The notes beneath the pieces are model-generated. The model worked only from the letters and a program-made list of their open reading frames with translations. It was not told where the DNA came from and made no database searches. A program made the translations under genes and the position numbers. A DNA stretch of 64,000 nucleotides, taken from NCBI GenBank assembly GCA_030407315.1, contig JALQPE010000581.1, positions 37,747 to 101,746 on the forward strand. The letters run 5' to 3'. Within the stretch, counting starts at the first letter, position 1, and every line of letters begins with the position of its first letter. The DNA comes from Asparagopsis taxiformis (taxonomy: Eukaryota; Rhodophyta; Florideophyceae; Bonnemaisoniales; Bonnemaisoniaceae). Shown in pieces: positions 33,333 through 64,000 of this stretch.

Positions 33333-33638
33333 GATGAGGGGGAGATCAGGGAGCTTCAGAAAGATATCAGTGGACTCTCTGGAGAGTTGGGTAGTGAAGG
33401 CAATTTCAATATCCATTCTTCGCAGCGTAACGACCATGGCGCCATCCAAGTCAATTCTCCTCGCAACAGAGAATACAACGCTATAGTTGCATCTCTTTCA
33501 AAGAGACTTCTTCATCTACACCCATCTGCATCTAACCGATGCAGTGTGGGAGAGTCCAAGGTAAACTCGGAGACAAGGCAAAGGGAAACAAGCCTATTCC
33601 TGAAACTATGTGGCTTTGAAAACATACTCCAGGATTAG
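33333..33638 (+). pseudogene. coding-like fragment ended by the telomere-like tract
   Basis: An open frame of ~100 codons with protein-like, hydrophilic composition (starts DEGEIRELQKDISGLSGEL). It lies 90 bp downstream of the zinc-finger gene. Its stop codon is the TAG inside the first telomere-like repeat (33636-33638). It may be a second exon or frameshifted continuation of the upstream gene, truncated when the telomeric tract was added. Confidence 0.35.
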
Positions 33639-33978
33639 GGATTAGGGGATTAGGGGATTTTTAGGGGATTTTTTTAGGGGATTAGGGGATTAGGGATTTT
33701 AGGGGATTAGGGATTAGGGGATTAGGGGATTAGGATTAGGGATTAGGGGATTTTTTTAGGGGATTAGGGGATTTTTTTCAGGGGATTAGGTTTTAGGGGA
33801 TTAGGGGATTAGGGGATTAGGGGATTAGGATTTAGGGGATTAGGGGATTAGGGATTTAGGGGATTAGGGGATTAGGGGATTTAGGGGATTAGGGGTTAGG
33901 GGATTAGGGATTAGGGGATTAGGGGATTAGGGGATTAGGGATTAGGGGATTAGGGGATTAGGGGATTAGGGATTAGGG
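33632..33978 (+). repeat. telomere-like repeat tract, 347 bp
   Basis: About 40 units of (T)TAGGGGA or TTAGGG with variable T runs (up to seven T) and occasional missing G. G-rich on the plus strand, so by the usual rule the chromosome end lies to the right. It passes without a gap into the 3' end of the first Penelope-like element (GGGATTAGGGCAAGATCGG). Confidence 0.93.
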
Positions 33979-34142
33979 CAAGATCGGTCTTTGTTTGCTG
34001 TGCAGCACTTGAATTAACAGCTGGAGTGTAGAGCTCTCAGCCGAACTGTCGGGGTGACCTGGCTGAAATTTTTTCTCAGCTTTGGGGTCGACTTTTTCCG
34101 GGTTCAGGGAGCGGAAGCTGCTCGGGTTCGGGGCCAGAGGTA

Positions 34143-34305
34143 GTCCGGGATAGGGGCTTCACTGTTCCTGGGGACTATAAATTTTTCCAGCGTCCGGGAT
34201 AGGGGCTTCTCAGGTTCCCTGGGAACTATTCAATTTTCCAGTGTTCGGGTAGGGGCTTTCCCGTTGTCCTGGGAGTATATTCAGTTCCTGGTGTCCGGGG
34301 TCGGG
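34143..34305 (-). repeat. ~50 bp minisatellite in element 3' region
   Basis: Three full copies plus a partial one start with GT(C/T)CGGG at 34143, 34192, 34243 and 34293. Each carries TAGGGGCTT (plus strand), TCC(C)TGGGA and a short AT-rich segment. The same block recurs in every unit, about 165 bp into the unit from its 3' end. Confidence 0.8.
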
Positions 34306-34399
34306 GGCGATATCCTGCTTGATACCTCGGCAAAAAAATTTCGCTCGGTAGGGTACCGTAAAATGAATGCTGGGGATGATCGTCTTACTTGAGTGAGGG

Positions 34400-34480
34400 C
34401 TTGGGATCGTTCGCAGTTGCCAGTGTACTGAGAGAACGTTTCGACACCTTTAATGTGTCTTCATCAGCTCCTGACTAGAA
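34400..34480 (-). ncRNA. hammerhead-like ribozyme motif, incomplete
   Basis: The minus strand has CTGATGA (34461-34467), a hairpin GACAC-ATTAAAG-GTGTC, then GAAAC (34438-34442). These are the two conserved core strands and stem II of a hammerhead, with one extra A before stem II. A candidate stem III pairs ACGTTC with GAACG at 34406-34440, with a bulged A before TC. I could not complete stem I. Hammerheads are known in Penelope-like elements. The motif lies between the RT stop and the element 3' end in every unit (about 427-490 bp from each unit's start coordinate). Confidence 0.4.
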
Positions 34481-34680
34481 ACTATTCTACGATCCTGGCT
34501 GATCACCTCACTACTTATAGTGCCTGGTGTGTGCACCAAGCTATGAAATTGCTCTTCTGCTCTGTAAATTCTTGCAGCGGCGGCGGCGGAATCTAGGGCT
34601 TGAACAATTTCAGAAATTAGTGGTTTTTTGTCCATTCCTGGAATATTTTGGCCGGTTCAACGGTCCTGCAGGTGAACTGC

Positions 34681-36387
34681 TTATTGAATTCTCGGACTTT
34701 TGCGGAACATTGGGTATTTCCACGTTTGTTTTGCGGCTATGAGATGCTTCCCAATTTTCCTGAAGTCTTTGTAGACTATTTTGGGTGGCCATGCATCAAT
34801 TATGGCCTTTTGTTTTTTGTTGTATTGACCTAGCCTGCGGTCAATAAGGAGGGTCTTGATAGGGATTCTACTCAGCATAATTTTCCAGTGCTTGAATGTA
34901 TCATGATGATATCTTGTCAGAACCAGTTTTCCTTCTGGTGCGGTTCTTTCCCGCGTTTGAAAGATATACTTTTGTCGGTCATCAAACCTGATTCTTTTCC
35001 ATTTTTGTTTGATGATCGAAGCCTTATACCCTCTCTGCATGAGACCCTTGAAAATTGTCGACATTGCTCGCAGCCATTCGTAGCGACTACTTGTGTTTCG
35101 TAGCGCTCTAATTGCTTCTCCAGTGACAATTCCATTTTTCATGGAGCCTGGATGATTGCTGTTGGCTGGGAGATACAACATTTTGTTCGTAGGCTTGAAA
35201 AATACTTTGAGGTCGAACTTGCTCTCCATTTTGTATCTGATCCCTTTGAATATTGTGACGTCCAGATAGGTGGCCTCATAGTCACTGATCGTGTAGGTTA
35301 ATTTCAGATTAGAACAGCTGTTCAATTTTTCCAAGATTCTTGTTGCATCCACTCTTTCTTTCACAACCAGGACACCATCATCGATATATCTACTCTGGAA
35401 GTAGATGGACGAGTCTTGGAGTATTTCTTGAAACTTGAAATAGAGATACAGGTTTGCAAATGGTGGAGCAACCTGGGTTCCAGTAGCAGTCCCCACCATT
35501 TGTCTGTATATATTTTCTCCATGTTGAACATAATTGTTGTACATAATTAATTGGAGAACTTTTGTCCATATGTAATAGTCGCGTTTCATTATGTCCAAAT
35601 TTTCTTTCAGCGTGCTGATTGCATCTTTCAGGTCGATGTTCGGGTATAGTGATACCACATCGTATGTAACCAATACACAACACTTGGGTGCTTGAAAGAG
35701 CTCAAGCTGCCTTACAACACTTCTCGAATCTCTTGCTATTTCGGGGAGACTTTCAACTTCCTCTTGTAACACTCTGGCCAGCTCCTTACTGAGAGGCGCT
35801 AAGGTGTACGAATGTTGAGGAGTAATCGGGCGAGCACCCAGTCTCGACTTGTGCAGTTTTGGGATGATGTAAAATGGACACGGACTCTTAGCCTCTGTCG
35901 CATGTGTAATCCATTTCTTCTTTTTCCAGCCCGGTATTTCTGTCGCAAATCGTATCACGTTCTGTAGTCTCTCGACTATCTGTGCATGAGGAAATTTAGG
36001 GACTCGCTTAAATGTAGGCTCTCCGATATTTTTCCATACCAGAGACATATAGATGTCTCCGCGGACTGGTACAATACCAAGATTCTTGTCCGCGTTCTTT
36101 GTCACAACATCCATATTTTTCAAGTCATCAATTCCTTTTCGTATGGTATTTTCAAGCTTAGTCTGCCTTTGCTTGGGAATGGTCGCAATGTAGCGTAGAC
36201 ATTCTAGTTTCCACCTTTTCCAATTTTTCTGTTCATCGATGCTTAGTTCAGAGATGAGACTGGCGTAGGTATGTTCTACCTCGTTGATGAGCAGTGCCAA
36301 CGATCTCTGTAGATTACCTTGGAACGCGTATTTGTGTCCAAGGCGAAGTACCATTTTTGCAGCCGTTGAGAGTTTGTCCAGCTTCAC
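34681..36387 (-). CDS. Penelope-like reverse transcriptase (ORF2), unit 1
   Basis: 568 codons counted from a GTG at 36387; the first ATG is at 36354. The frame is open ~90 codons further upstream, overlapping ORF1. Motifs in order: KNADKNLG (98-104, equivalent of the Penelope DKG region), YIIPKLHK (173-180), ARPI, catalytic motif A TYDVVSLYPNI (Asp 243), motif B GTATGTQVAPPFANL (299-313), motif C YIDD (334-337), ATYLDV (372-377) and LPANSNHP (406-413). A PKIVYK...IGKHLI tail follows and no GIY-YIG domain. The protein copies element RNA into DNA, presumably priming from chromosome 3' ends. Unit 1 reads DDGVLVV after YI where other units have DDGLLVV, and DEQKN at residue 53 where others have DERKN. 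Confidence 0.9.
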   Translation of the reverse strand: MKLDKLSTAAKMVLRLGHKYAFQGNLQRSLALLINEVEHTYASLISELSIDEQKNWKRWKLECLRYIATIPKQRQTKLENTIRKGIDDLKNMDVVTKNADKNLGIVPVRGDIYMSLVWKNIGEPTFKRVPKFPHAQIVERLQNVIRFATEIPGWKKKKWITHATEAKSPCPFYIIPKLHKSRLGARPITPQHSYTLAPLSKELARVLQEEVESLPEIARDSRSVVRQLELFQAPKCCVLVTYDVVSLYPNIDLKDAISTLKENLDIMKRDYYIWTKVLQLIMYNNYVQHGENIYRQMVGTATGTQVAPPFANLYLYFKFQEILQDSSIYFQSRYIDDGVLVVKERVDATRILEKLNSCSNLKLTYTISDYEATYLDVTIFKGIRYKMESKFDLKVFFKPTNKMLYLPANSNHPGSMKNGIVTGEAIRALRNTSSRYEWLRAMSTIFKGLMQRGYKASIIKQKWKRIRFDDRQKYIFQTRERTAPEGKLVLTRYHHDTFKHWKIMLSRIPIKTLLIDRRLGQYNKKQKAIIDAWPPKIVYKDFRKIGKHLIAAKQTWKYPMFRKSPRIQ

Positions 36388-36389
36388 AC

Positions 36390-37312
36390 CTATTGGCGCG
36401 TTGTACGCTGTGAGCGGTTGGGTGGTTTTTTTCTTCCTCGCTCGGACTCTTGCGGTTTTTTCTGTGGTTTCTTCTTCTGGTATGGTTTTGATGTTTTCCC
36501 CTTGACTCCATTTTGTTCCTGCCGTACTGTAAAATTTTTTGTTCGGCCTCCGCCCTGGTTGGGTTTGGCCTTTCCGTTTTTCTGGGTCTGGGGTACTTGT
36601 GAAGTTATCCTTGACTGGAGTGCGGATACGTCTTGCTGCAGTTTTTTGACCTGTGGGTCAATTAGTTCTGCATCTATCCTTTGCTGTTCCTGTCGAGCCT
36701 TTTTTTCCTCCAATTTTTGGAGTTCTTCTCGTCGTCTGATCAGATCATTTGTCCTAATCTCATTTTCCAAATGGGATAGAATATGGTCAAGGTTGGCTTC
36801 AAGGCTTGCCAATTTTTGTTCGTCGGACGTCATGTTAGGCTGTGGGTGTAAATTCTCTGCAGAGAGTTGTGTCAAGATGGATGTAGTTTCGCGCTTCCAA
36901 TGTTGTCGCTTATTTTCCATCTCCTTCTTGATATCTGCAAGCTCTCCCTTGCGTGCAGTGAGTATCCCATTGATAACTGTATTTTGAAACACCTTTGCAG
37001 CTTCATCTATCACTTTGTCGATAGTTTGCTGTCTATTTCCTTTCACCATTACTCGGACGTTTAGGTGCAAGCTTTTTGGTGCGGTATTTTTTCCAGGTGT
37101 TCTTGTAGCGTGAGGATAGCATTTTCTTTAGCGCATAATGCCTTTAGGAGCTTACTTATTTCCCTTGTTGTGTTGGTTGTAAGCTTTTCTGCCCATGGCG
37201 GAATTTTTTGTAATATTCCTGGCATGGTGGGAGTCTCGTTTCCTAAGGGTACTCCCAGTGCTTCTCCTAATTTCCTTCTTCTCGCGCTTCGTTCGTTCGT
37301 TTCAAGCGGCAT
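36390..37312 (-). pseudogene. element ORF1, frameshifted, unit 1
   Basis: Same ORF1 as in unit 2, but one T is missing from a homopolymer near 37085-37091. The frame is split into an 83-codon 5' part (37061-37312) and a 226-codon 3' part (36390-37070). Unit 6 has the same change. Confidence 0.8.
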
Positions 37313-37342
37313 CTGGCTTCTTCCGTTTAGGATTCTTTTGTT

Positions 37343-37353
37343 GGGGATTAGGG
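37343..37353 (+). repeat. telomere-like junction motif GGGGATTAGGG, recurring
   Basis: The 11 bp joining unit 1 to unit 2. The same motif sits at every inter-unit junction: 40719-40729, 44095-44105, 47471-47481, 50847-50857, 54222-54232 and 57598-57608, and with one extra G at 60966-60977. It equals one and a half telomere-like repeats in the same orientation as the 33632 tract. Confidence 0.92.
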
Positions 37354-38055
37354 CAAGATCGGTCTTTGTTTGCTGTGCAGCACTTGAATTAACAGCTGGA
37401 GTGTAGAGCTCTCAGCCGAACTGTCGGGGTGACCTGGCTGAAATTTTTTCTCAGCTTTGGGGTCGACTTTTTCCGGGTTCAGGGAGCGGAAGCTGCTCGG
37501 GTTCGGGGCCAGAGGTAGTCCGGGATAGGGGCTTCACTGTTCCTGGGGACTATAAATTTTTCCAGCGTCCGGGATAGGGGCTTCTCAGGTTCCCTGGGAA
37601 CTATTCAATTTTCCAGTGTTCGGGTAGGGGCTTTCCCGTTGTCCTGGGAGTATATTCAGTTCCTGGTATCCGGGGTCGGGGGCGATATCCTGCTTGATAC
37701 CTCGGCAAAAAAATTTCGCTCGGTAGGGTACCGTAAAATGAATGCTGGGGATGATCGTCTTACTTGAGTGAGGGCTTGGGATCGTTCGCAGTTGCCAGTG
37801 TACTGAGAGAACGTTTCGACACCTTTAATGTGTCTTCATCAGCTCCTGACTAGAAACTATTCTACGATCCTGGCTGATCACCTCACTACTTATAGTGCCT
37901 GGTGTGTGCACCAAGCTATGAAATTGCTCTTCTGCTCTGTAAATTCTTGCAGCGGCGGCGGCGGAATCTAGGGCTTGAACAATTTCAGAAATTAGTGGTT
38001 TTTTGTCCATTCCTGGAATATTTTGGCCGGTTCAACGGTCCTGCAGGTGAACTGC

Positions 38056-39762
38056 TTATTGAATTCTCGGACTTTTGCGGAACATTGGGTATTTCCACGT
38101 TTGTTTTGCGGCTATGAGATGCTTCCCAATTTTCCTGAAGTCTTTGTAGACTATTTTGGGTGGCCATGCATCAATTATGGCCTTTTGTTTTTTGTTGTAT
38201 TGACCTAGCCTGCGGTCAATAAGGAGGGTCTTGATAGGGATTCTACTGAGCATAATTTTCCAGTGCTTGAATGTATCATGATGATATCTTGTCAGAACCA
38301 GTTTTCCTTCTGGTGCGGTTCTTTCCCGCGTTTGAAAGATATACTTTTGTCGGTCATCAAACCTGATTCTTTTCCATTTTTGTTTGATGATCGAAGCCTT
38401 ATACCCTCTCTGCATGAGACCCTTGAAAATTGTCGACATTGCTCGCAGCCATTCGTAGCGACTACTTGTGTTTCGTAGCGCTCTAATTGCTTCTCCAGTG
38501 ACAATTCCATTTTTCATGGAGCCTGGATGATTGCTGTTGGCTGGGAGATACAACATTTTGTTCGTAGGCTTGAAAAATACTTTGAGGTCGAACTTGCTCT
38601 CCATTTTGTATCTGATCCCTTTGAATATTGTGACGTCCAGATAGGTGGCCTCATAGTCACTGATCGTGTAGGTTAATTTCAGATTAGAACAGCTGTTCAA
38701 TTTTTCCAAGATTCTTGTTGCATCCACTCTTTCTTTCACAACCAGGAGACCATCATCGATATATCTACTCTGGAAGTAGATGGACGAGTCTTGGAGTATT
38801 TCTTGAAACTTGAAATAGAGATACAGGTTTGCAAATGGTGGAGCAACCTGGGTTCCAGTAGCAGTCCCCACCATTTGTCTGTATATATTTTCTCCATGTT
38901 GAACATAATTGTTGTACATAATTAATTGGAGAACTTTTGTCCATATGTAATAGTCGCGTTTCATTATGTCCAAATTTTCTTTCAGCGTGCTGATTGCATC
39001 TTTCAGGTCGATGTTCGGGTATAGTGATACCACATCGTATGTAACCAATACACAACACTTGGGTGCTTGAAAGAGCTCAAGCTGCCTTACAACACTTCTC
39101 GAATCTCTTGCTATTTCGGGGAGACTTTCAACTTCCTCTTGTAACACTCTGGCCAGCTCCTTACTGAGAGGCGCTAAGGTGTACGAATGTTGAGGAGTAA
39201 TCGGGCGAGCACCCAGTCTCGACTTGTGCAGTTTTGGGATGATGTAAAATGGACACGGACTCTTAGCCTCTGTCGCATGTGTAATCCATTTCTTCTTTTT
39301 CCAGCCCGGTATTTCTGTCGCAAATCGTATCACGTTCTGTAGTCTCTCGACTATCTGTGCATGAGGAAATTTAGGGACTCGCTTAAATGTAGGCTCTCCG
39401 ATATTTTTCCATACCAGAGACATATAGATGTCTCCGCGGACTGGTACAATACCAAGATTCTTGTCCGCGTTCTTTGTCACAACATCCATATTTTTCAAGT
39501 CATCAATTCCTTTTCGTATGGTATTTTCAAGCTTAGTCTGCCTTTGCTTGGGAATGGTCGCAATGTAGCGTAGACATTCTAGTTTCCACCTTTTCCAATT
39601 TTTCCGTTCATCGATGCTTAGTTCAGAGATGAGACTGGCGTAGGTATGTTCTACCTCGTTGATGAGCAGTGCCAACGATCTCTGTAGATTACCTTGGAAC
39701 GCGTATTTGTGTCCAAGGCGAAGTACCATTTTTGCAGCCGTTGAGAGTTTGTCCAGCTTCAC
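38056..39762 (-). CDS. Penelope-like reverse transcriptase (ORF2), unit 2
   Basis: Intact; same motifs as unit 1 with consensus DDGLLVV after YI. It begins 2 bases after the ORF1 stop if counted from the GTG at 39762. The open frame actually reaches back to 40032, overlapping ORF1 by 268 bp in the -1 frame. An ATG at 39729 would give 557 residues. Expression by -1 frameshifting from ORF1 is more plausible than GTG initiation. Confidence 0.92.
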   Translation of the reverse strand: MKLDKLSTAAKMVLRLGHKYAFQGNLQRSLALLINEVEHTYASLISELSIDERKNWKRWKLECLRYIATIPKQRQTKLENTIRKGIDDLKNMDVVTKNADKNLGIVPVRGDIYMSLVWKNIGEPTFKRVPKFPHAQIVERLQNVIRFATEIPGWKKKKWITHATEAKSPCPFYIIPKLHKSRLGARPITPQHSYTLAPLSKELARVLQEEVESLPEIARDSRSVVRQLELFQAPKCCVLVTYDVVSLYPNIDLKDAISTLKENLDIMKRDYYIWTKVLQLIMYNNYVQHGENIYRQMVGTATGTQVAPPFANLYLYFKFQEILQDSSIYFQSRYIDDGLLVVKERVDATRILEKLNSCSNLKLTYTISDYEATYLDVTIFKGIRYKMESKFDLKVFFKPTNKMLYLPANSNHPGSMKNGIVTGEAIRALRNTSSRYEWLRAMSTIFKGLMQRGYKASIIKQKWKRIRFDDRQKYIFQTRERTAPEGKLVLTRYHHDTFKHWKIMLSRIPIKTLLIDRRLGQYNKKQKAIIDAWPPKIVYKDFRKIGKHLIAAKQTWKYPMFRKSPRIQ

Positions 39763-39764
39763 AC

Positions 39765-40688
39765 CTATTGGCGCGTTGTACGCTGTGAGCGGTTGGGTGG
39801 TTTTTTTCTTCCTCGCTCGGACTCTTGCGGTTTTTTCTGTGGTTTCTTCTTCTGGTATGGTTTTGATGTTTTCCCCTTGACTCCATTTTGTTCCTGCCGT
39901 ACTGTAAAATTTTTTGTTCGGCCTCCGCCCTGGTTGGGTTTGGCCTTTCCGTTTTTCTGGGTCTGGGGTACTTGTGAAGTTATCCTTGACTGGAGTGCGG
40001 ATACGTCTTGCTGCAGTTTTTTGACCTGTGGGTCAATTAGTTCTGCATCTATCCTTTGCTGTTCCTGTCGAGCCTTTTTTTCCTCCAATTTTTGGAGTTC
40101 TTCTCGTCGTCTGATCAGATCATTTGTCCTAATCTCATTTTCCAAATGGGATAGAATATGGTCAAGGTTGGCTTCAAGGCTTGCCAATTTTTGTTCGTCG
40201 GACGTCATGTTAGGCTGTGGGTGTAAATTCTCTGCAGAGAGTTGTGTCAAGATGGATGTAGTTTCGCGCTTCCAATGTTGTCGCTTATTTTCCATCTCCT
40301 TCTTGATATCTGCAAGCTCTCCCTTGCGTGCAGTGAGTATCCCATTGATAACTGTATTTTGAAACACCTTTGCAGCTTCATCTATCACTTTGTCGATAGT
40401 TTGCTGTCTATTTCCTTTCACCATTACTCGGACGTTTAGGTGCAAGCTTTTTGGTGCGGTATTTTTTTCCAGGTGTTCTTGTAGCGTGAGGATAGCATTT
40501 TCTTTAGCGCATAATGCCTTTAGGAGCTTACTTATTTCCCTTGTTGTGTTGGTTGTAAGCTTTTCTGCCCATGGCGGAATTTTTTGTAATATTCCTGGCA
40601 TGGTGGGAGTCTCGTTTCCTAAGGGTACTCCCAGTGCTTCTCCTAATTTCCTTCTTCTCGCGCTTCGTTCGTTCGTTTCAAGCGGCAT
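39765..40688 (-). CDS. element ORF1, coiled-coil/basic protein, unit 2
   Basis: 307 codons from the ATG at 40688. The N-terminal ~75 residues are helical with RSARRRKLGEALG. Residues ~100-225 are strongly coiled-coil-like with heptad-type Leu/Ile and Lys/Glu (DLIRRREELQKLEEKKARQE). The last ~75 residues are very basic and Gln/Pro/Lys-rich (YQKKKPQKKPQ). No zinc knuckle. It resembles the nucleic-acid-binding ORF1 proteins of retroelements: likely to coat element RNA and oligomerise. Precedes the RT in the transcript. Confidence 0.8.
   Translation of the reverse strand: MPLETNERSARRRKLGEALGVPLGNETPTMPGILQKIPPWAEKLTTNTTREISKLLKALCAKENAILTLQEHLEKNTAPKSLHLNVRVMVKGNRQQTIDKVIDEAAKVFQNTVINGILTARKGELADIKKEMENKRQHWKRETTSILTQLSAENLHPQPNMTSDEQKLASLEANLDHILSHLENEIRTNDLIRRREELQKLEEKKARQEQQRIDAELIDPQVKKLQQDVSALQSRITSQVPQTQKNGKAKPNQGGGRTKNFTVRQEQNGVKGKTSKPYQKKKPQKKPQESERGRKKPPNRSQRTTRQ
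39909..39915 (-). promoter_or_regulatory. candidate -1 frameshift heptamer A-AAA-AAT
   Basis: In the ORF1 frame the codons ACA AAA AAT form the slippery pattern X-XXY-YYZ. The RT frame is exactly -1 to ORF1 and is open from 40032 onward, so a slip here gives an ORF1-RT fusion. A second A6 run (40017-40022) is less canonical. Present in every intact unit at the same offset (unit 1: 36534-36540). I could not evaluate a downstream pseudoknot. Confidence 0.5.
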
Positions 40689-41431
40689 CTGGCTTCTTCC
40701 GTTTAGGATTCTTTTGTTGGGGATTAGGGCAAGATCGGTCTTTGTTTGCTGTGCAGCACTTGAATTAACAGCTGGAGTGTAGAGCTCTCAGCCGAACTGT
40801 CGGGGTGACCTGGCTGAAATTTTTTCTCAGCTTTGGGGTCGACTTTTTCCGGGTTCAGGGAGCGGAAGCTGCTCGGGTTCGGGGCCAGAGGTAGTCCGGG
40901 ATAGGGGCTTCACTGTTCCTGGGGACTATAAATTTTTCCAGCGTCCGGGATAGGGGCTTCTCAGGTTCCCTGGGAACTATTCAATTTTCCAGTGTTCGGG
41001 TAGGGGCTTTCCCGTTGTCCTGGGAGTATATTCAGTTCCTGGTATCCGGGGTCGGGGGCGATATCCTGCTTGATACCTCGGCAAAAAAATTTCGCTCGGT
41101 AGGGTACCGTAAAATGAATGCTGGGGATGATCGTCTTACTTGAGTGAGGGCTTGGGATCGTTCGCAGTTGCCAGTGTACTGAGAGAACGTTTCGACACCT
41201 TTAATGTGTCTTCATCAGCTCCTGACTAGAAACTATTCTACGATCCTGGCTGATCACCTCACTACTTATAGTGCCTGGTGTGTGCACCAAGCTATGAAAT
41301 TGCTCTTCTGCTCTGTAAATTCTTGCAGCGGCGGCGGCGGAATCTAGGGCTTGAACAATTTCAGAAATTAGTGGTTTTTTGTCCATTCCTGGAATATTTT
41401 GGCCGGTTCAACGGTCCTGCAGGTGAACTGC

Positions 41432-43138
41432 TTATTGAATCCTCGGACTTTTGCGGAACATTGGGTATTTCCACGTTTGTTTTGCGGCTATGAGATGCTT
41501 CCCAATTTTCCTGAAGTCTTTGTAGACTATTTTGGGTGGCCATGCATCAATTATGGCCATTTGGTTTTTGTTGTATTGACCTAGCCTGCGGTCAATAAGG
41601 AGGGTCTTGATAGGGATTCTACTGAGCATAATTTTCCAGTGCTTGAATGTATCATGATGATATCTTGTCAGAACCAGTTTTCCTTCTGGTGCGGTTCTTT
41701 CCCGCGTTTGAAAGATATACTTTTGTCGGTCATCAAACCTGATTCTTTTCCATTTTTGTTTGATGATCGAAGCCTTATACCCTCTCTGCATGAGACCCTT
41801 GAAAATTGTCGACATTGCTCGCAGCCATTCGTAGCGACTACTTGTGTTTCGTAGCGCTCTAATTGCTTCTCCAGTGACAATTCCATTTTTCATGGAGCCT
41901 GGATGATTGCTGTTGGCTGGGAGATACAACATTTTGTTCGTAGGCTTGAAAAATACTTTGAGGTCGAACTTGCTCTCCATTTTGTATCTGATCCCTTTGA
42001 ATATTGTGACGTCCAGATAGGTGGCCTCATAGTCACTGATCGTGTAGGTTAATTTCAGATTAGAACAGCTGTTCAATTTTTCCAAGATTCTTGTTGCATC
42101 CACTCTTTCTTTCACAACCAGGAGACCATCATCGATATATCTACTCTGGAAGTAGATGGACGAGTCTTGGAGTATTTCTTGAAACTTGAAATAGAGATAC
42201 AGGTTTGCAAATGGTGGAGCAACCTGGGTTCCAGTAGCAGTCCCCACCATTTGTCTGTATATATTTTCTCCATGTTGAACATAATTGTTGTACATAATTA
42301 ATTGGAGAACTTTTGTCCATATGTAATAGTCGCGTTTCATTATGTCCAAATTTTCTTTCAGCGTGCTGATTGCATCTTTCAGGTCGATGTTCGGGTATAG
42401 TGATACCACATCGTATGTAACCAATACACAACACTTGGGTGCTTGAAAGAGCTCAAGCTGCCTTACAACACTTCTCGAATCTCTTGCTATTTCGGGGAGA
42501 CTTTCAACTTCCTCTTGTAACACTCTGGCCAGCTCCTTACTGAGAGGCGCTAAGGTGTACGAATGTTGAGGAGTAATCGGGCGAGCACCCAGTCTCGACT
42601 TGTGCAGTTTTGGGATGATGTAAAATGGACACGGACTCTTAGCCTCTGTCGCATGTGTAATCCATTTCTTCTTTTTCCAGCCCGGTATTTCTGTCGCAAA
42701 TCGTATCACGTTCTGTAGTCTCTCGACTATCTGTGCATGAGGAAATTTAGGGACTCGCTTAAATGTAGGCTCTCCGATATTTTTCCATACCAGAGACATA
42801 TAGATGTCTCCGCGGACTGGTACAATACCAAGATTCTTGTCCGCGTTCTTTGTCACAACATCCATATTTTTCAAGTCATCAATTCCTTTTCGTATGGTAT
42901 TTTCAAGCTTAGTCTGCCTTTGCTTGGGAATGGTCGCAATGTAGCGTAGACATTCTAGTTTCCACCTTTTCCAATTTTTCCGTTCATCGATGCTTAGTTC
43001 AGAGATGAGACTGGCGTAGGTATGTTCTACCTCGTTGATGAGCAGTGCCAACGATCTCTGTAGATTACCTTGGAACGCGTATTTGTGTCCAAGGCGAAGT
43101 ACCATTTTTGCAGCCGTTGAGAGTTTGTCCAGCTTCAC
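41432..43138 (-). CDS. Penelope-like reverse transcriptase (ORF2), unit 3
   Basis: Intact, 568 codons from GTG, all RT motifs present. Carries the KNQMAII variant that defines units 3-9. Confidence 0.92.
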   Translation of the reverse strand: MKLDKLSTAAKMVLRLGHKYAFQGNLQRSLALLINEVEHTYASLISELSIDERKNWKRWKLECLRYIATIPKQRQTKLENTIRKGIDDLKNMDVVTKNADKNLGIVPVRGDIYMSLVWKNIGEPTFKRVPKFPHAQIVERLQNVIRFATEIPGWKKKKWITHATEAKSPCPFYIIPKLHKSRLGARPITPQHSYTLAPLSKELARVLQEEVESLPEIARDSRSVVRQLELFQAPKCCVLVTYDVVSLYPNIDLKDAISTLKENLDIMKRDYYIWTKVLQLIMYNNYVQHGENIYRQMVGTATGTQVAPPFANLYLYFKFQEILQDSSIYFQSRYIDDGLLVVKERVDATRILEKLNSCSNLKLTYTISDYEATYLDVTIFKGIRYKMESKFDLKVFFKPTNKMLYLPANSNHPGSMKNGIVTGEAIRALRNTSSRYEWLRAMSTIFKGLMQRGYKASIIKQKWKRIRFDDRQKYIFQTRERTAPEGKLVLTRYHHDTFKHWKIMLSRIPIKTLLIDRRLGQYNKNQMAIIDAWPPKIVYKDFRKIGKHLIAAKQTWKYPMFRKSPRIQ

Positions 43139-43140
43139 AC

Positions 43141-46514: not shown

Positions 46515-46516
46515 AC

Positions 46517-49890: not shown

Positions 49891-49892
49891 AC

Positions 49893-53266: not shown

Positions 53267-53268
53267 AC

Positions 53269-54191: not shown

Positions 54192-54934
54192 CTGGCTTCT
54201 TCCGTTTAGGATTCTTTTGTTGGGGATTAGGGCAAGATCGGTCTTTGTTTGCTGTGCAGCACTTGAATTAACAGCTGGAGTGTAGAGCTCTCAGCCGAAC
54301 TGTCGGGGTGACCTGGCTGAAATTTTTTCTCAGCTTTGGGGTCGACTTTTTCCGGGTTCAGGGAGCGGAAGCTGCTCGGGTTCGGGGCCAGAGGTAGTCC
54401 GGGATAGGGGCTTCACTGTTCCTGGGGACTATAAATTTTTCCAGCGTCCGGGATAGGGGCTTCTCAGGTTCCCTGGGAACTATTCAATTTTCCAGTGTTC
54501 GGGTAGGGGCTTTCCCGTTGTCCTGGGAGTATATTCAGTTCCTGGTATCCGGGGTCGGGGGCGATATCCTGCTTGATACCTCGGCAAAAAAATTTCGCTC
54601 GGTAGGGTACCGTAAAATGAATGCTGGGGATGATCGTCTTACTTGAGTGAGGGCTTGGGATCGTTCGCAGTTGCCAGTGTACTGAGAGAACGTTTCGACA
54701 CCTTTAATGTGTCTTCATCAGCTCCTGACTAGAAACTATTCTACGATCCTGGCTGATCACCTCACTACTTATAGTGCCTGGTGTGTGCACCAAGCTATGA
54801 AATTGCTCTTCTGCTCTGTAAATTCTTGCAGCGGCGGCGGCGGAATCTAGGGCTTGAACAATTTCAGAAATTAGTGGTTTTTTGTCCATTCCTGGAATAT
54901 TTTGGCCGGTTCAACGGTCCTGCAGGTGAACTGC

Positions 54935-56641
54935 TTATTGAATCCTCGGACTTTTGCGGAACATTGGGTATTTCCACGTTTGTTTTGCGGCTATGAGATG
55001 CTTCCCAATTTTCCTGAAGTCTTTGTAGACTATTTTGGGTGGCCATGCATCAATTATGGCCATTTGGTTTTTGTTGTATTGACCTAGCCTGCGGTCAATA
55101 AGGAGGGTCTTGATAGGGATTCTACTGAGCATAATTTTCCAGTGCTTGAATGTATCATGATGATATCTTGTCAGAACCAGTTTTCCTTCTGGTGCGGTTC
55201 TTTCCCGCGTTTGAAAGATATACTTTTGTCGGTCATCAAACCTGATTCTTTTCCATTTTTGTTTGATGATCGAAGCCTTATACCCTCTCTGCATGAGACC
55301 CTTGAAAATTGTCGACATTGCTCGCAGCCATTCGTAGCGACTACTTGTGTTTCGTAGCGCTCTAATTGCTTCTCCAGTGACAATTCCATTTTTCATGGAG
55401 CCTGGATGATTGCTGTTGGCTGGGAGATACAACATTTTGTTCGTAGGCTTGAAAAATACTTTGAGGTCGAACTTGCTCTCCATTTTGTATCTGATCCCTT
55501 TGAATATTGTGACGTCCAGATAGGTGGCCTCATAGTCACTGATCGTGTAGGTTAATTTCAGATTAGAACAGCTGTTCAATTTTTCCAAGATTCTTGTTGC
55601 ATCCACTCTTTCTTTCACAACCAGGAGACCATCATCGATATATCTACTCTGGAAGTAGATGGACGAGTCTTGGAGTATTTCTTGAAACTTGAAATAGAGA
55701 TACAGGTTTGCAAATGGTGGAGCAACCTGGGTTCCAGTAGCAGTCCCCACCATTTGTCTGTATATATTTTCTCCATGTTGAACATAATTGTTGTACATAA
55801 TTAATTGGAGAACTTTTGTCCATATGTAATAGTCGCGTTTCATTATGTCCAAATTTTCTTTCAGCGTGCTGATTGCATCTTTCAGGTCGATGTTCGGGTA
55901 TAGTGATACCACATCGTATGTAACCAATACACAACACTTGGGTGCTTGAAAGAGCTCAAGCTGCCTTACAACACTTCTCGAATCTCTTGCTATTTCGGGG
56001 AGACTTTCAACTTCCTCTTGTAACACTCTGGCCAGCTCCTTACTGAGAGGCGCTAAGGTGTACGAATGTTGAGGAGTAATCGGGCGAGCACCCAGTCTCG
56101 ACTTGTGCAGTTTTGGGATGATGTAAAATGGACACGGACTCTTAGCCTCTGTCGCATGTGTAATCCATTTCTTCTTTTTCCAGCCCGGTATTTCTGTCGC
56201 AAATCGTATCACGTTCTGTAGTCTCTCGACTATCTGTGCATGAGGAAATTTAGGGACTCGCTTAAATGTAGGCTCTCCGATATTTTTCCATACCAGAGAC
56301 ATATAGATGTCTCCGCGGACTGGTACAATACCAAGATTCTTGTCCGCGTTCTTTGTCACAACATCCATATTTTTCAAGTCATCAATTCCTTTTCGTATGG
56401 TATTTTCAAGCTTAGTCTGCCTTTGCTTGGGAATGGTCGCAATGTAGCGTAGACATTCTAGTTTCCACCTTTTCCAATTTTTCCGTTCATCGATGCTTAG
56501 TTCAGAGATGAGACTGGCGTAGGTATGTTCTACCTCGTTGATGAGCAGTGCCAACGATCTCTGTAGATTACCTTGGAACGCGTATTTGTGTCCAAGGCGA
56601 AGTACCATTTTTGCAGCCGTTGAGAGTTTGTCCAGCTTCAC
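54935..56641 (-). CDS. Penelope-like reverse transcriptase (ORF2), unit 7
   Basis: Intact; the protein is identical to that of unit 3. Confidence 0.92.
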   Translation of the reverse strand: MKLDKLSTAAKMVLRLGHKYAFQGNLQRSLALLINEVEHTYASLISELSIDERKNWKRWKLECLRYIATIPKQRQTKLENTIRKGIDDLKNMDVVTKNADKNLGIVPVRGDIYMSLVWKNIGEPTFKRVPKFPHAQIVERLQNVIRFATEIPGWKKKKWITHATEAKSPCPFYIIPKLHKSRLGARPITPQHSYTLAPLSKELARVLQEEVESLPEIARDSRSVVRQLELFQAPKCCVLVTYDVVSLYPNIDLKDAISTLKENLDIMKRDYYIWTKVLQLIMYNNYVQHGENIYRQMVGTATGTQVAPPFANLYLYFKFQEILQDSSIYFQSRYIDDGLLVVKERVDATRILEKLNSCSNLKLTYTISDYEATYLDVTIFKGIRYKMESKFDLKVFFKPTNKMLYLPANSNHPGSMKNGIVTGEAIRALRNTSSRYEWLRAMSTIFKGLMQRGYKASIIKQKWKRIRFDDRQKYIFQTRERTAPEGKLVLTRYHHDTFKHWKIMLSRIPIKTLLIDRRLGQYNKNQMAIIDAWPPKIVYKDFRKIGKHLIAAKQTWKYPMFRKSPRIQ

Positions 56642-56643
56642 AC

Positions 56644-57567
56644 CTATTGGCGCGTTGTACGCTGTGAGCGGTTGGGTGGTTTTTTTCTTCCTCGCTCGGA
56701 CTCTTGCGGTTTTTTCTGTGGTTTCTTCTTCTGGTATGGTTTTGATGTTTTCCCCTTGACTCCATTTTGTTCCTGCCGTACTGTAAAATTTTTTGTTCGG
56801 CCTCCGCCCTGGTTGGGTTTGGCCTTTCCGTTTTTCTGGGTCTGGGGTACTTGTGAAGTTATCCTTGACTGGAGTGCGGATACGTCTTGCTGCAGTTTTT
56901 TGACCTGTGGGTCAATTAGTTCTGCATCTATCCTTTGCTGTTCCTGTCGAGCCTTTTTTTCCTCCAATTTTTGGAGTTCTTCTCGTCGTCTGATCAGATC
57001 ATTTGTCCTAATCTCATTTTCCAAATGGGATAGAATATGGTCAAGGTTGGCTTCAAGGCTTGCCAATTTTTGTTCGTCGGACGTCATGTTAGGCTGTGGG
57101 TGTAAATTCTCTGCAGAGAGTTGTGTCAAGATGGATGTAGTTTCGCGCTTCCAATGTTGTCGCTTATTTTCCATCTCCTTCTTGATATCTGCAAGCTCTC
57201 CCTTGCGTGCAGTGAGTATCCCATTGATAACTGTATTTTGAAACACCTTTGCAGCTTCATCTATCACTTTGTCGATAGTTTGCTGTCTATTTCCTTTCAC
57301 CATTACTCGGACGTTTAGGTGCAAGCTTTTTGGTGCGGTATTTTTTTCCAGGTGTTCTTGTAGCGTGAGGATAGCATTTTCTTTAGCGCATAATGCCTTT
57401 AGGAGCTTACTTATTTCCCTTGTTGTGTTGGTTGTAAGCTTTTCTGCCCATGGCGGAATTTTTTGTAATATTCCTGGCATGGTGGGAGTCTCGTTTCCTA
57501 AGGGTACTCCCAGTGCTTCTCCTAATTTCCTTCTTCTCGCGCTTCGTTCGTTCGTTTCAAGCGGCAT
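56644..57567 (-). CDS. element ORF1, unit 7
   Basis: Intact; the protein is identical to that of unit 3. Confidence 0.8.
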   Translation of the reverse strand: MPLETNERSARRRKLGEALGVPLGNETPTMPGILQKIPPWAEKLTTNTTREISKLLKALCAKENAILTLQEHLEKNTAPKSLHLNVRVMVKGNRQQTIDKVIDEAAKVFQNTVINGILTARKGELADIKKEMENKRQHWKRETTSILTQLSAENLHPQPNMTSDEQKLASLEANLDHILSHLENEIRTNDLIRRREELQKLEEKKARQEQQRIDAELIDPQVKKLQQDVSALQSRITSQVPQTQKNGKAKPNQGGGRTKNFTVRQEQNGVKGKTSKPYQKKKPQKKPQESERGRKKPPNRSQRTTRQ

Positions 57568-58310
57568 CTGGCTTCTTCCGTTTAGGATTCTTTTGTTGGG
57601 GATTAGGGCAAGATCGGTCTTTGTTTGCTGTGCAGCACTTGAATTAACAGCTGGAGTGTAGAGCTCTCAGCCGAACTGTCGGGGTGACCTGGCTGAAATT
57701 TTTTCTCAGCTTTGGGGTCGACTTTTTCCGGGTTCAGGGAGCGGAAGCTGCTCGGGTTCGGGGCCAGAGGTAGTCCGGGATAGGGGCTTCACTGTTCCTG
57801 GGGACTATAAATTTTTCCAGCGTCCGGGATAGGGGCTTCTCAGGTTCCCTGGGAACTATTCAATTTTCCAGTGTTCGGGTAGGGGCTTTCCCGTTGTCCT
57901 GGGAGTATATTCAGTTCCTGGTATCCGGGGTCGGGGGCGATATCCTGCTTGATACCTCGGCAAAAAAATTTCGCTCGGTAGGGTACCGTAAAATGAATGC
58001 TGGGGATGATCGTCTTACTTGAGTGAGGGCTTGGGATCGTTCGCAGTTGCCAGTGTACTGAGAGAACGTTTCGACACCTTTAATGTGTCTTCATCAGCTC
58101 CTGACTAGAAACTATTCTACGATCCTGGCTGATCACCTCACTACTTATAGTGCCTGGTGTGTGCACCAAGCTATGAAATTGCTCTTCTGCTCTGTAAATT
58201 CTTGCAGCGGCGGCGGCGGAATCTAGGGCTTGAACAATTTCAGAAATTAGTGGTTTTTTGTCCATTCCTGGAATATTTTGGCCGGTTCAACGGTCCTGCA
58301 GGTGAACTGC

Positions 58311-60014
58311 TTATTGAATCCTCGGACTTTTGCGGAACATTGGGTATTTCCACGTTTGTTTTGCGGCTATGAGATGCTTCCCAATTTTCCTGAAGTCTTT
58401 GTAGACTATTTTGGGTGGCCATGCATCAATTATGGCCATTTGGTTTTTGTTGTATTGACCTAGCCTGCGGTCAATAAGGAGGGTCTTGATAGGGATTCTA
58501 CTGAGCATAATTTTCCAGTGCTTGAATGTATCATGATGATATCTTGTCAGAACCAGTTTTCCTTCTGGTGCGGTTCTTTCCCGCGTTTGAAAGATATACT
58601 TTGTCGGTCATCAAACCTGATTCTTTTCCATTTTGTTTGATGATCGAAGCCTTATACCCTCTCTGCATGAGACCCTTGAAAATTGTCGACATTGCTCGCA
58701 GCCATTCGTAGCGACTACTTGTGTTTCGTAGCGCTCTAATTGCTTCTCCAGTGACAATTCCATTTTTCATGGAGCCTGGATGATTGCTGTTGGCTGGGAG
58801 ATACAACATTTTGTTCGTAGGCTTGAAAAATACTTTGAGGTCGAACTTGCTCTCCATTTTGTATCTGATCCCTTTGAATATTGTGACGTCCAGATAGGTG
58901 GCCTCATAGTCACTGATCGTGTAGGTTAATTTCAGATTAGAACAGCTGTTCAATTTTTCCAAGATTCTTGTTGCATCCACTCTTTCTTTCACAACCAGGA
59001 GACCATCATCGATATATCTACTCTGGAAGTAGATGGACGAGTCTTGGAGTATTTCTTGAAACTTGAAATAGAGATACAGGTTTGCAAATGGTGGAGCAAC
59101 CTGGGTTCCAGTAGCAGTCCCCACCATTTGTCTGTATATATTTTCTCCATGTTGAACATAATTGTTGTACATAATTAATTGGAGAACTTTTGTCCATATG
59201 TAATAGTCGCGTTTCATTATGTCCAAATTTTCTTTCAGCGTGCTGATTGCATCTTTCAGGTCGTTCGGGTATAGTGATACCACATCGTATGTAACCAATA
59301 CACAACACTTGGGTGCTTGAAAGCTCAAGCTGCCTAGCTACAATTCTCACAACACTTCTCGAATCTCTTGCTATTTCGGGGAGACTTTCAACTTCCTCTT
59401 GTAACACTCTGGCCAGCTCCTTACTGAGAGGCGCTAAGGTGTACGAATGTTGAGGAGTAATCGGGCGAGCACCAGTCTCGACTTGTGCAGTTTTGGGATG
59501 ATGTAAAAGGACACGGACTCTTAGCCTCTGTCGCATGTGTAATCCATTTCTTCTTTTTCCAGCCCGGTATTTCTGTCGCAAATCGTATCACGTTCTGTAG
59601 TCTCTCGACTATCTGTGCATGAGGAAATTTAGGGACTCGCTTAAATGTAGGCTCTCCGATTTTTTCCATACCAGAGACATTAGATGTCTCCGCGGACTGG
59701 TACAATACAAGATTCTTGTCCGCGTTCTTTGTCACAACATCCATATTTTTCAAGTCATCAATTCCTTTTCGTATGGTATTTTCAAGCTTAGTCTGCCTTT
59801 GCTTGGGAATGGTCGCAATGTAGCGTAGACATTCTAGTTTCCACCTTTTCCTTTTTCCGTTCATCGATGCTTAGTTCAGAGATGAGACTGGCGTAGGTAT
59901 GTTCTACCTCGTTGATGAGCAGTGCCAACGATCTCTGTAGATTACCTTGGAACGCGTATTTGTGTCCAAGGCGAAGTACCATTTTGCAGCCGTTGAGAGT
60001 TTGTCCAGCTTCAC
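58311..60014 (-). pseudogene. RT (ORF2) broken by indels, unit 8
   Basis: The RT is recognisable in pieces: the motif A to SNHP region is intact as a 265-codon frame (58531-59328), flanked by frameshifts. The indel pattern suggests base-calling error more than biological loss. Confidence 0.8.
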
Positions 60015-60016
60015 AC

Positions 60017-60936
60017 CTATTGGCGCGTTGTACGCTGTGAGCGGTTGGGTGGTTTTTTTCTTCCTCGCTCGGACTCTTGCGGTTTTTTCTGTGGTTTCTT
60101 CTTCTGGTATGGTTTTGATGTTTTCCCCTTGACTCCATTTTGTTCCTGCCGTACTGTAAAATTTTTTGTTCGGCCTCCGCCCTGGTTGGGTTTGGCCTTT
60201 CCGTTTTTCTGGGTCTGGGGTACTTGTGAAGTTATCCTTGACTGGAGTGCGGATACGTCTTGCTGCAGTTTTTGACCTGTGGGTCAATTAGTTCTGCATC
60301 TATCCTTTGCTGTTCCTGTCGAGCCTTTTTTTCCTCCAATTTTTGGAGTTCTTCTCGTCGTCTGATCAGATCATTTGTCCTAATCTCATTTTCCAAATGG
60401 GATAGAATATGGTCAAGGTTGGCTTCAAGGCTTGCCAATTTTTGTTCGTCGGACGTCATGTTAGGCTGTGGGTGTAAATTCTCTGCAGAGAGTTGTGTCA
60501 AGATGGATGTAGTTTCGCGCTTCCAATGTTGTCGCTTATTTTCCATCTCCTTCTTGATATCTGCAAGCTCTCCCTTGCGTGCAGTGAGTATCCCATTGAT
60601 AACTGTATTTTGAAACACCTTTGCAGCTTCATCTATCACTTTGTCGATAGTTTGCTGTCTATTTCCTTTCACCATTACTCGGACGTTTAGGTGCAAGCTT
60701 TTTGGTGCGGTATTTTTTTCCAGGTGTTCTGTAGCGTGAGGATAGCATTTTCTTTAGCGCATAATGCCTTTAGGAGCTTACTTATTTCCCTTGTTGTGTT
60801 GGTTGTAAGCTTTTCTGCCCATGGCGGAATTTTTTGTAATATTCTGGCATGGTGGGAGTCTCGTTTCCTAAGGGTACTCCCAGTGCTTCTCCTAATTTCC
60901 TTCTTCTCGTCGCTTCGTTCGTCGTTTCAGCGGCAT
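60017..60936 (-). pseudogene. ORF1 broken by indels, unit 8
   Basis: A 154-codon middle part is intact (60232-60696). Frameshifts lie near 60270 (A run), 60730 and in the first ~90 bases of the gene. Confidence 0.75.
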
Positions 60937-61681
60937 CTGGCTTCTTCCGTTTAGGATTCTTTGTTGGGGGATTAGGGCAAGATCGGTCTTTGTTTGCTGT
61001 GCAGCACTTGAATTAACAGCTGGAGTGTAGAGCTCTCAGCCGAACTGTCGGGGTGACCTGGCTGAAATTTTTTCTCAGCTTTGGGGTCGACTTTTTCCGG
61101 GTTCAGGGAGCGGAAGCTGCTCGGGTTCGGGGCCAGAGGTAGTCCGGGATAGGGGCTTCACTGTTCCTGGGGACTATAAATTTTCCAGCGTCCGGGATAG
61201 GGGCTTCTCAGGTTCCCTGGGAACTATTCAATTTTTCCAGTGTCGGGTAGGGGCTTTCCCGTTGTCCTGGGAGTATATTCAGTTCCTGGTATCCGGGGTC
61301 GGGGATAGTATATCCTGCTTGATACCTCGGCAAAAAAATTTCGCTCGTAGGGTACCGTAAAATGAATGCTGGGGATGATCGTCCTTACTTGAGTGAGGGC
61401 TTGGGATCGTTCGCAGTTGCCAGTGTACTGAGAGAACGTTTCACACCTTTAATGTGTCTTCATCAGCTCCTGACTAGAAAACTATTCTACGATCCTGGCT
61501 GATCACCTCACTACTTTAGTGCCTGGTGTGTGCACCAAGCTATGAAATTGCTCTTCTGCTCTGTAAATTCTTGCAGCGGCGGCGGCGGAAATCTAGGGCT
61601 TGAACAATTTCAGAAATTAGTGGTTTTTGTCCATTCCTGGAATATTTTTGGGCCGGTTCAACGGTCCTGCAGGTGAACTGC

Positions 61682-63391
61682 TTATTGAAATCCTCGGACT
61701 TTTGCGGAACATTGGGTATTTCCACGTTGTTTTTTGCGGCTATGAGATGCTTCCCAATTTTCCTGAAGTCTTTGTAGACTATTTTGGGTGGCCATGCATC
61801 AATTATGGCCATTTGGTTTTTGTTGTATTGACCTAGCCTGCGGTCAATAAGGAGGGTCTTGATAGGGATTCTACTGAGCATAATTTTCCCGTGCTTGAAT
61901 GTATCATGATGATATCTTGTCAGAACCAGTTTTCCTTCTGGTGCGGTTCTTTCCCGCGTTGAAAGATATACTTTTGTCGGTCATCAAACCTGATTCTTTT
62001 CCATTTTGTTTGATGATCGAAGCCTTATACCCTCTCTGCATGAGACCCTTGAAAATTGTCGACATTGCTCGCAGCCATTCGTAGCGACTACTTGTGTTTC
62101 GTAGCGCTCTAATTGCTTCTCCAGTGACAATTCCATTTTTCATGGAGCCTGGATGATTGCTGTTGGCTGGGAGATACACATTTTGTTCGTAGGCTTGAAA
62201 ATATCTTTGAGGTCGAACTTGCTCTCCATTTTGTATCTGATCCCTTTGAATATTGTGACGTCCAGATAGGTGGCCTCATAGTCACTGATCGTGTAGGTTA
62301 ATTTCAGATTAGAACAGCTGTTCAATTTTTCCAAGATTCTTGTTGCATCCACTCTTTTCTTCACAACCACCAGAGACCATCATCGATATATCTACTCTGG
62401 AAGTAGATGGACGAGTCTTGGAGTATTTCTTGAAACTTGAAATAGAGATACAGGTTTTGCAAATGGTGGAGCAACCTGGGTTTCCAGTAGCAGTCCCCAC
62501 CATTTGTCTGTATATATTTTCTCCATGTTGAACATAATTGTTGTACATAATTAATTGGAGAACTTTGTCCATATGTAATAGTCGCGTTTCATTATGTCCA
62601 AATTTTCTTTCAGCGTGCTGATTGCATCTTTCAGGTCGATGTTTCGGGTATAGTGATACCACATCGTATGTAACCCATACACAACACTTGGGTGCTTGAA
62701 AGAGCTCAAGCTGCCTTACAACACTTCTCGAATCTCTTGTGCTATTTCGGGGAGACTTTCAACTTCCTCTTGTAACACTCTGGCCAGCTCCTTACTGAGA
62801 GGCGCTAAGGTGTACGAATGTTGAGGAGTAATCGGGCGAGCACCCAGTCTCGACTTGTGCAGTTTTGGGATGATGTAAAATGGACACGGACTCTTAGCCT
62901 CTGTCGCATGTGTATCCATTTCTTCTTTTTCCAGCCCGTATTTCTGTCGCAAATCGTATCACGTTCTGTAGTCTTCGACTATCTGTGCATGAGGAAATTT
63001 AGGGACTCGCTTAAATGTAGGCTCTCCGATATTTTTCCATACCAGAGACATATAGATGTCTCCGCGGACTGGTACAATACCAAGATTCTTGTCCGCGTTC
63101 TTTGTCACAACATCCTATTTTTCAAGTCATCAATTCCTTTTCGTATGGTATTTTCAAGCTTAGTCTGCCTTTGCTTGGGAATGGTCGCAATGTAGCGTAG
63201 ACATTCTAGTTTCCACCTTTTCCAATTTTTCCGTTCATCGATGCTTAGTTCAGAGATGAGACTGGCGTAGGTATGTTCTACCTCGTTGATGAGGCAGTGC
63301 CAACGATCTCTGTAGATTACCTTGGAACGCGTATTTGTGTCCAAGGCGAAGTAACCATTTTTGCAGCCGTTGAGAGTTTGTCCAGCTTCAC
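61682..63391 (-). pseudogene. RT (ORF2) broken by many indels, unit 9
   Basis: All RT segments are recognisable but spread over several frames; the order matches unit 7. Confidence 0.75.
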
Positions 63392-63392
63392 A

Positions 63393-64000
63393 CTATTGGC
63401 GCGTTGTACGCTGTGAGCGGTTGGGTGGTTTTTTTCTTCCTCGCTCGCTCTTGCGGGTTTTTCTGTGGTTTCTTCTTCTGGTATGGTTTTGATGTTTTTC
63501 CCCCTTGACTCCATTTTGTTCCTGCCGTACTGTAAATTTTTTTGTTCGGCCTCCGCCCTGGTTGGGTTTGGCCTTTCCGTTTTTCTGGTCTGGGGGACTT
63601 GTGAAGTTTATCCTTGACTGGAGTGCGGTACGTCTTGCTGCAGTTTTTTGACCTGTGGGTCAATTAGTCTGCATCTATCCTTTGCTGTTCCTGTCGAGCC
63701 TTTTTTTCCTCGCCATTTTTGGAGTTCTTCTCGTCGTCTGATCAGATCATTTGTCCTAATCTCATTTTCACAAATGGGATAGAATATGGTCCAGGTTGGC
63801 TTCAGGCTTGCCAATTTTTTTTCGTCGGACGTCATGTTAGGCTTGTGGGTGTAAATTCTCTGCAGAGAGTTGTGTCAGAAGATGGATGTAGTTTGCGCTT
63901 CCAATGTTGTCGCTTATTTTCCATCTCCTTCTTGATATCTGCAAGCTCTCCCTTGCGTGCAGTGAGTATCCCATTGATAACTGTATTTTGAAACACCTTT
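63393..64000 (-). pseudogene. ORF1 broken by indels and window end, unit 9
   Basis: The C-terminal basic tail and part of the coiled coil are recognisable in shifting frames; the N-terminal third lies outside the window. Confidence 0.7.

Follow-up and report, generated by a model that had tools for sequence, protein, structure and literature searches.

What is a tract of telomere-type repeats doing inside a contig, with a tandem array of retroelements attached to it? This question is raised by a 64,000-nucleotide stretch of DNA from the red alga Asparagopsis taxiformis (hereafter the window), which is C581:37747-101746, C581 being the contig JALQPE010000581.1. The initial annotation suggested that the array might be a chromosome cap or a replacement form of telomere maintenance. 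Based on the window and on the genome (141.5 Mb in 3156 contigs), we arrive at another reading: the array is composed of Penelope-like retroelements without an endonuclease, which are likely added to chromosome ends that telomerase then reseals.

Tandem Elements Continue the Telomeric G-Strand

The inner telomere-type tract occupies positions 33632–33978 (plus strand; 347 bp) and was detected by Tandem Repeats Finder (TRF) with a score of 383 and the repeat unit GGATTAGG. It is of the TTAGGGGA type with irregular repeats, T(2-7)AGG(G)(G)A, and its G-rich strand reads toward the contig end. As initially described, the tract runs directly into tandem units. These start at 33978, 37353, 40729, 44105, 47481, 50857, 54232, 57608, and 60977, and measure 3375, 3376, 3376, 3376, 3376, 3375, 3376, 3369, and at least 3024 bp, respectively. 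Nine units of about 3376 bp had been reported. Eight (3369–3376 bp) are complete; the head-to-tail array ends with a ninth unit cut by the window edge, which is also the contig end, since C581 ends at 101746 bp. All element genes lie on the minus strand and the element 3' ends face the tract; the telomeric G-strand (plus) therefore leads directly into the antisense of the element 3' end. The reported separator GGGGATTAGGG was found at all eight junctions, between units 0 and 1 at 37343–37353 (plus strand) and with further copies at 40719, 44095, 47471, 50847, 54222, 57598, and 60967; we regard it as an element-encoded landing sequence.

The search of the genome for the reverse transcriptase (RT) of these elements yielded at least 78 matches on 21 contigs, a lower bound. 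We examined 17 loci on 16 of these contigs, with C2014, C901, C1114, C613, and C2361 left out; the arrays on C250, C316, C40, C997, C2578, and C2579 were examined in part, with some units per array, and C2579 was read except for its last 0.8 kb. The genome-wide check for units beside telomere tracts, proposed at the outset, revealed the same arrangement on other contigs and in five RT families, i.e., family A (3376 bp; C581), family B (3106 bp; C250 and C316), family C (3130 bp; C442, C865, C2578, and C2579), family D (3227 bp; C40 and C997), and family E (3002 bp; C188). A tract lay beside the element at 13 of the 17 loci (C581, two on C250, C316, C442, C865, C40, C997, C188, C143, C2598, C842, and C956), in every case at the 3' end of the element, and the G-strand led out of the tract into the element. 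Among these, one C250 place and C842 have a common flank, and the C956 element is a family E relative (78.6%) whose alignment ends 21 bases short of the unit end. The four loci without a full tract are C2578 and C2579, which are all array, and C2013 and C740, which hold the same truncated copy, one each, with a two-repeat remnant at the 3' edge on C2013.

At their junctions, the families carry the linkers GGGGATTAGGG (A), AGGGGATTTGGG (B), GGGGATTGGG (C), AGGGGATTGTT (D), and TTTAGGGGATTTTT (E); some copies deviate slightly. All five show AATCCCC at the junction and have GGGGATT in common. Since the linkers are family-specific and share GGGGATT, they are encoded by the element, and repeats added by telomerase between units can be ruled out. 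On the telomere side is the 3' end of the element; its short terminal stretch can pair with the telomere (core AATCCCC), and it extends the G-strand of a short TTAGGGGA tract. As a separate observation, family D copies at C2598 (near 100948), C842 (near 7621), and C250 (near 39673) are joined to one and the same outer sequence, although their truncation points differ (334 and 833).

An Endonuclease-Less Reverse Transcriptase and Its Relatives

Two open reading frames (ORFs) were found per unit. In unit 1, ORF1 (39765–40688, minus strand) is an open frame of 307 amino acids (aa) with a basic C-terminus, and ORF2 (38056–39762, minus strand) encodes a 568-aa Penelope-type RT with a match to RVT_1. 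The RT frame is intact in seven of the nine units (units 0–6) and ORF1 in five, with further intact copies at 43141–44064, 46517–47440, 49893–50816, and 56644–57567. The ORF1s of the families are related to one another, and no relatives were found in the protein database. A GIY-YIG domain, reported as missing, was indeed not detected when the ORFs of units 0 and 1 were compared with Pfam, nor in ORF2 of families A–E or ORF1 of families A, C, D, and E (ORF1 of family B was outside the scan). The designation as endonuclease-deficient Penelope-like elements is in keeping with the RVT_1 match and the missing GIY-YIG, and the class itself is assigned by motifs.

Residues invariant across 27 relatives include DKN, FY-PK-HK, RP, DDG, HP, and GE, a set that looks Penelope-type. 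An AlphaFold2 model of the RT based on 27 sequences (mean predicted local distance difference test score, pLDDT, 89; predicted template modeling score, pTM, 0.81) matched telomerase chains at the top of the structural hits, with the RT of a diversity-generating retroelement (DGR) and group II RTs lower. According to this model, the RT fold is close to that of telomerase, and telomerase is thought to have a common ancestor with Penelope-like elements.

In total, 142 RT relatives were found in public sequence. Among the 120 listed (P0003–P0122), 89 lie on contigs of 3.0–4.2 kb and 10 on contigs larger than 5 kb, a distribution that a collapse of tandem units during short-read assembly might explain. 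Viral and species genomes gave 13 and 33 pattern stretches, respectively, none of which was confirmed as a relative by tblastn. In an RT tree of 113 rows, comprising unnamed relatives only, the families form two groups (A, B, and C; D and E). Their separate positions among the relatives make the five families look old and separate; that they are recent copies of one family is ruled out by this separation and by RT identities of 51–66%.

A Predicted Hammerhead Ribozyme in Every Family

Unit 1 contains a type I hammerhead motif at 37779–37870 (minus strand), with predicted cleavage after window base 37810; the initial annotation had not mentioned it. On the element strand it reads GAG-CUGAUGA, stem II, GAAAC-GUU-CUC, and stem III has just two pairs. 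Identical 92-base stretches start at 34404, 41155, 44531, 47907, 51283, 54658, and 58034; the unit 8 copy (61404–61495) differs, with one base missing in the core region. A descriptor composed after the motif had been seen matched eight of the nine units, had no further match on the two strands of the window, and occurred once in 12 Mb of first-order random sequence. A comparison with Rfam gave no hammerhead match. Each unit examined in families A–E has one hammerhead core, which starts 490, 215, 315, 143, and 141 bases before the unit end in A, B, C, D, and E, respectively. Among the five family sequences, four of the five stem II pairs show changes on both sides, and 97.5% of cells pair, compared to 80.6% after shuffling and 40–56% when slid. 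Motif and covariation thus predict a hammerhead ribozyme in the 3'/pseudo-long terminal repeat (pLTR) region of the elements. Between hammerhead and linker lies a 50–51-bp repeat (37518–37649 in unit 1, plus strand; 2.6 copies), which is present in all nine units.

The Host Has a Telomerase Gene and Telomere-Closed Ends

A TERT gene was identified on C1700 (Telomerase_RBD, E 1.3e-27), with a 1168-aa frame open over the RNA-binding and RT parts; RVT_1 and part of TERT_C were matched in the stretch examined. In the PDB, human telomerase matches it best (E about 1e-51), and its nearest named relative is from Agarophyton chilense (38% over 99%; three others 42–46%). A telomerase-less host is thereby ruled out. 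Phycobilisome linkers gave 13 matches on 10 contigs, and among 14 named control genomes Synechococcus alone matched; one linker is closest to 5y6p chain LRC3 (655 bits) and scores lower with 6kgx (403), which come from Griffithsia and Porphyridium, respectively. On this basis the host is a red alga, probably a florideophyte. TERT and the nuclear phycobilisome linkers together rule out a prokaryote or phage origin.

Terminal TTAGGGGA tracts close five element-bearing contigs (C442, 647 bp; C188, 885 bp; C143, 425 bp; C956, 619 bp; C740, 799 bp). Given these ends and the TERT gene, the arrays are not a replacement for telomerase, and the initial view of a cap or substitute telomere is not supported. 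In line with this, only 4 of 25 sampled telomere-word contigs (one listing among these being the first 100 of 2073 places) carry an RT match and 21 do not, RT counts being lower bounds. Tracts under elements measure 65–347 bp (n = 12; the common flank of C250 and C842 counted once, C40 measured after the test), and terminal tracts beyond elements 425–885 bp, possibly cut by the contig end. Element and terminal tract are separated by other sequence of 2.2 kb on C143 and about 5 kb on C740; the block on C143 (C143:101507-103734) had no match to the other loci read.

Probable Terminal Addition and Its Alternatives

We consider it likely that these elements are added to chromosome ends and that telomerase reseals them afterward. 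A short exposed G-strand would anneal, by its 3' end, to the telomere-like portion at the 3' side of the element RNA and prime reverse transcription (terminal target-primed reverse transcription); with the G-strand end as primer, an endonuclease would not be needed. Later copies would stack, as a chromosome end that breaks off within an element could anneal to the corresponding position of a further element RNA, which would give seamless tandems. Elements would in this way join short telomeres, before telomerase seals the end again. In families A, C, D, and E, ORF1 begins at most 42 bases into the unit, so that the promoter is probably located within the 3' region of the next distal unit, and tandem order would then aid expression. 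A hammerhead whose stem III is two bases long would act as a dimer and cut those RNAs in which two copies are present.

The distribution of variants suggests that the units closest to the tract are the oldest and that arrays grow outward by serial addition. On C581, unit 0 and then unit 1 diverge from the remaining units: unit 0 (33978–37352, minus strand; 3375 bp, innermost) has 7 substitutions compared to units 2–6, a broken ORF1 frame, and a 1-base T-run deletion, and unit 1 (37353–40728, minus strand; 3376 bp) has 3. Units 2–6 (40729–57607, minus strand; 3375–3376 bp each) are identical except for one T-run length in unit 5; compared to unit 1, units 0–6 differ at 0–5 bases. Unit 7 and the cut unit 8 (57608–64000, minus strand) show read-like indels up to the contig end. 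These scattered single-base indels relative to the other units (58600–64000) most likely reflect unpolished long-read sequence. In family D, the innermost units of C40 and C997 carry 2648G and 2747C, which are also present in copies located at other ends.

Several observations weigh against such simple outward growth. Family D 1680G is shared by those copies and the outer units of C997 and is absent from the innermost C997 unit, and one C40 unit further out carries 2747C alone; overall, the variants 1680G, 2648G, 2747C, and 3176A form a mosaic on C997 and C40, with no clean nested order. Some substitutions of the innermost C40 unit may be errors, as it has 27 indels. Furthermore, the variant order on C581 is unpolarised, and the arrays of families B, C, and E are uninformative on growth order. 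As for the position of the arrays, the initial annotation had named unique sequence on both sides of the array on all chromosomes as evidence against a terminal position; this is not what the loci show, yet the family B array on C250 has 7.7 kb of subtelomeric sequence on its outer side (C250:1-7658), partly common to C865 and C316, so that arrays can later be buried or C250 is chimeric. Serial addition plus some exchange is suggested as the simplest reading of the variants.

The best-surviving alternative shifts the weight from insertion to DNA-level amplification: after a few terminal insertions, unequal exchange, break-induced replication, or rolling-circle copying of DNA circles would build and homogenise the arrays, and retrotransposition would place the first copies only. 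We regard this as possible, although we would not expect it to be correct. It is in keeping with the identity of C581 units 2–6, with the mixed variants of family D (1680G occurs both in the outer units of C997 and in old copies at other places), which fit exchange, and with the subtelomeric sequence that C250 has in common with C865 and C316. Family C units read on C442, C865, C2578, and C2579 are nearly free of substitutions (none, apart from two in a single C865 unit and one in a single C2579 unit), which, despite the different flanks of C442 and C865, points to recent copying. A near-identical family C copy among the public relatives (P0004; 99.8% identity over the 554 residues compared) lies on a contig of 3271 bp, i.e., 3130 + 141, as expected of cyclic assembly at k = 141, which we presume to be the assembly k value, and fits DNA circles. 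However, a separate linker for each family and a constant 3' junction at unrelated ends would require many first insertions anyway, and the units within C581, C40, and C997 are of more than one type.

Less probable, and in our view unlikely, is the formation of multi-unit arrays in one go, by reverse transcription of circular or end-redundant RNA: after hammerhead cleavage and ligation, or by jumps from one RNA's 5' end to the 3' end of the next, the RT would go around several times. One hammerhead with minimal stem III per unit in five families, the seamless junctions, and the runs of identical units would all suit this model. The outer ends speak on both sides. The outermost 3' pieces in full-unit arrays measure 402 (C442), 189 (C188), 332 (C143), and about 1015 bases (C250), so that three of four outer ends show hammerhead-bearing pieces of 189–402 bases after full units. 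The pieces on C442, C188, and C143, however, begin 87, 48, and 189 bases before the core and not at the cleavage site; the last template was therefore not hammerhead-cut. In addition, hammerhead mutants are reported to have no effect on in vitro insertion of an Anolis element (PMC11167929). We read these three pieces as copies ending at the RNA 5' end, which would then be pseudo-LTRs, but they may also be ordinary 5' truncations; inspected by eye, their starts share no clear common sequence.

A more far-reaching and still more doubtful idea is that elements with their own telomerase-like template (AATCCCC core) provide back-up telomere lengthening: they would be recruited to short telomeres and add many 3-kb units per processive event from end-redundant or hammerhead-made circular RNA, before telomerase resumes. 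If true, they would represent a working intermediate between retroelement and telomerase. An assembly or library artefact, with a short tandem or circle inflated into an array, is very improbable: read-like indels in the last two C581 units, array contigs that stop inside the array, and the 27 indels of the innermost C40 unit, which lies away from the contig end, could suggest it, but the same architecture occurs in different flanks on many contigs, five families share it, and C442 and C188 have terminal telomere repeats at the far side.

Neighbouring Sequence in the Window

An OrsD/C2H2 zinc-finger frame (32719–33243) ends 388 bp short of the telomere tract. Further upstream, a frame with an N6_N4_Mtase DNA methylase domain (5394–6935; E 5e-16) lies on this eukaryotic contig, and directly at its end is a short interstitial TTTAGGGGA tract (6931–6975), which had no match to the element beside it. 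A MAGE homology domain (E 1e-11), perhaps a single exon, was found at 21368–21796.

Comparison with Known Systems

Elements that lack an endonuclease and reside at telomeres have been described, as have hammerheads of Penelope-like elements and Terminons arranged head to tail (PMC6431247, PMC12477314, PMC3846280, PMC7761336, PMC6155905, PMC11167929, PMC5537684). The open-licence literature searched contained no compact self-landing arrays with element-encoded linkers and a red-algal host, nothing that linked TTAGGGGA with telomeres, and, by title, no Penelope-like elements in red algae. Red-algal telomere information is mostly missing or fragmentary according to one review (PMC7046594), and a TTAGGGGA-type motif is now available for a red alga. 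A single telomerase-bearing genome holds five families beside short tracts, several of them with near-identical copies at different ends, and several closed ends are readable. This makes it a tractable case for the chromosome end as primer of an endonuclease-less RT, for the role of the hammerhead, and for a possible rescue of eroded telomeres.

Like the elements described here, HeT-A, TART, and TAHRE of Drosophila are head-to-tail retroelements at chromosome ends; their RT is of a different class, and, unlike in Drosophila-type telomeres, the red-algal host has a telomerase gene and TTAGGGGA ends. The HeT-A promoter serves the neighbouring copy, as may be the case in the red alga. Coprina-type elements are compact, endonuclease-less Penelope-like elements at telomeres. 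The Athena/Coprina group likewise has no GIY-YIG and a 3' end joined to telomere repeats, with the G-strand leading into the antisense of the element. Homogeneous arrays with fixed linkers are absent from the descriptions of Coprina-type elements that were consulted. Fungi, protists, and plants are named as hosts of endonuclease-less elements (PMC3846280, PMC12477314), and Penelope elements at telomere-lacking ends are described for Agaricus (PMC7473861). Canonical Penelope-like elements share the tandem or partial-tandem order (with pseudo-LTRs) and the hammerhead with minimal stem III (PMC7761336, PMC6155905, PMC11167929), whereas here no GIY-YIG was found and the position is tied to telomere tracts.

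The closest known kind are the Athena/Terminon elements. They share the telomerase-related RT, the proposed priming from exposed chromosome ends, the 3' end joined to telomere repeats, the hammerhead motif, and the head-to-tail arrays (PMC6431247, PMC12477314, PMC3846280, PMC5537684). Terminons are described as giant multi-ORF elements of up to 40 kb, with most copies 5'-truncated by telomere stretches and the hammerhead next to telomere-like C-rich repeats. In contrast, the elements described here measure 3002–3376 bp with two ORFs, form mostly full-length, near-identical arrays with element-encoded linkers, carry the hammerhead core 141–490 bases before the unit end, and reside in a red alga. 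In this sense they are a compact variant that provides its own landing sequence, found in a new lineage.

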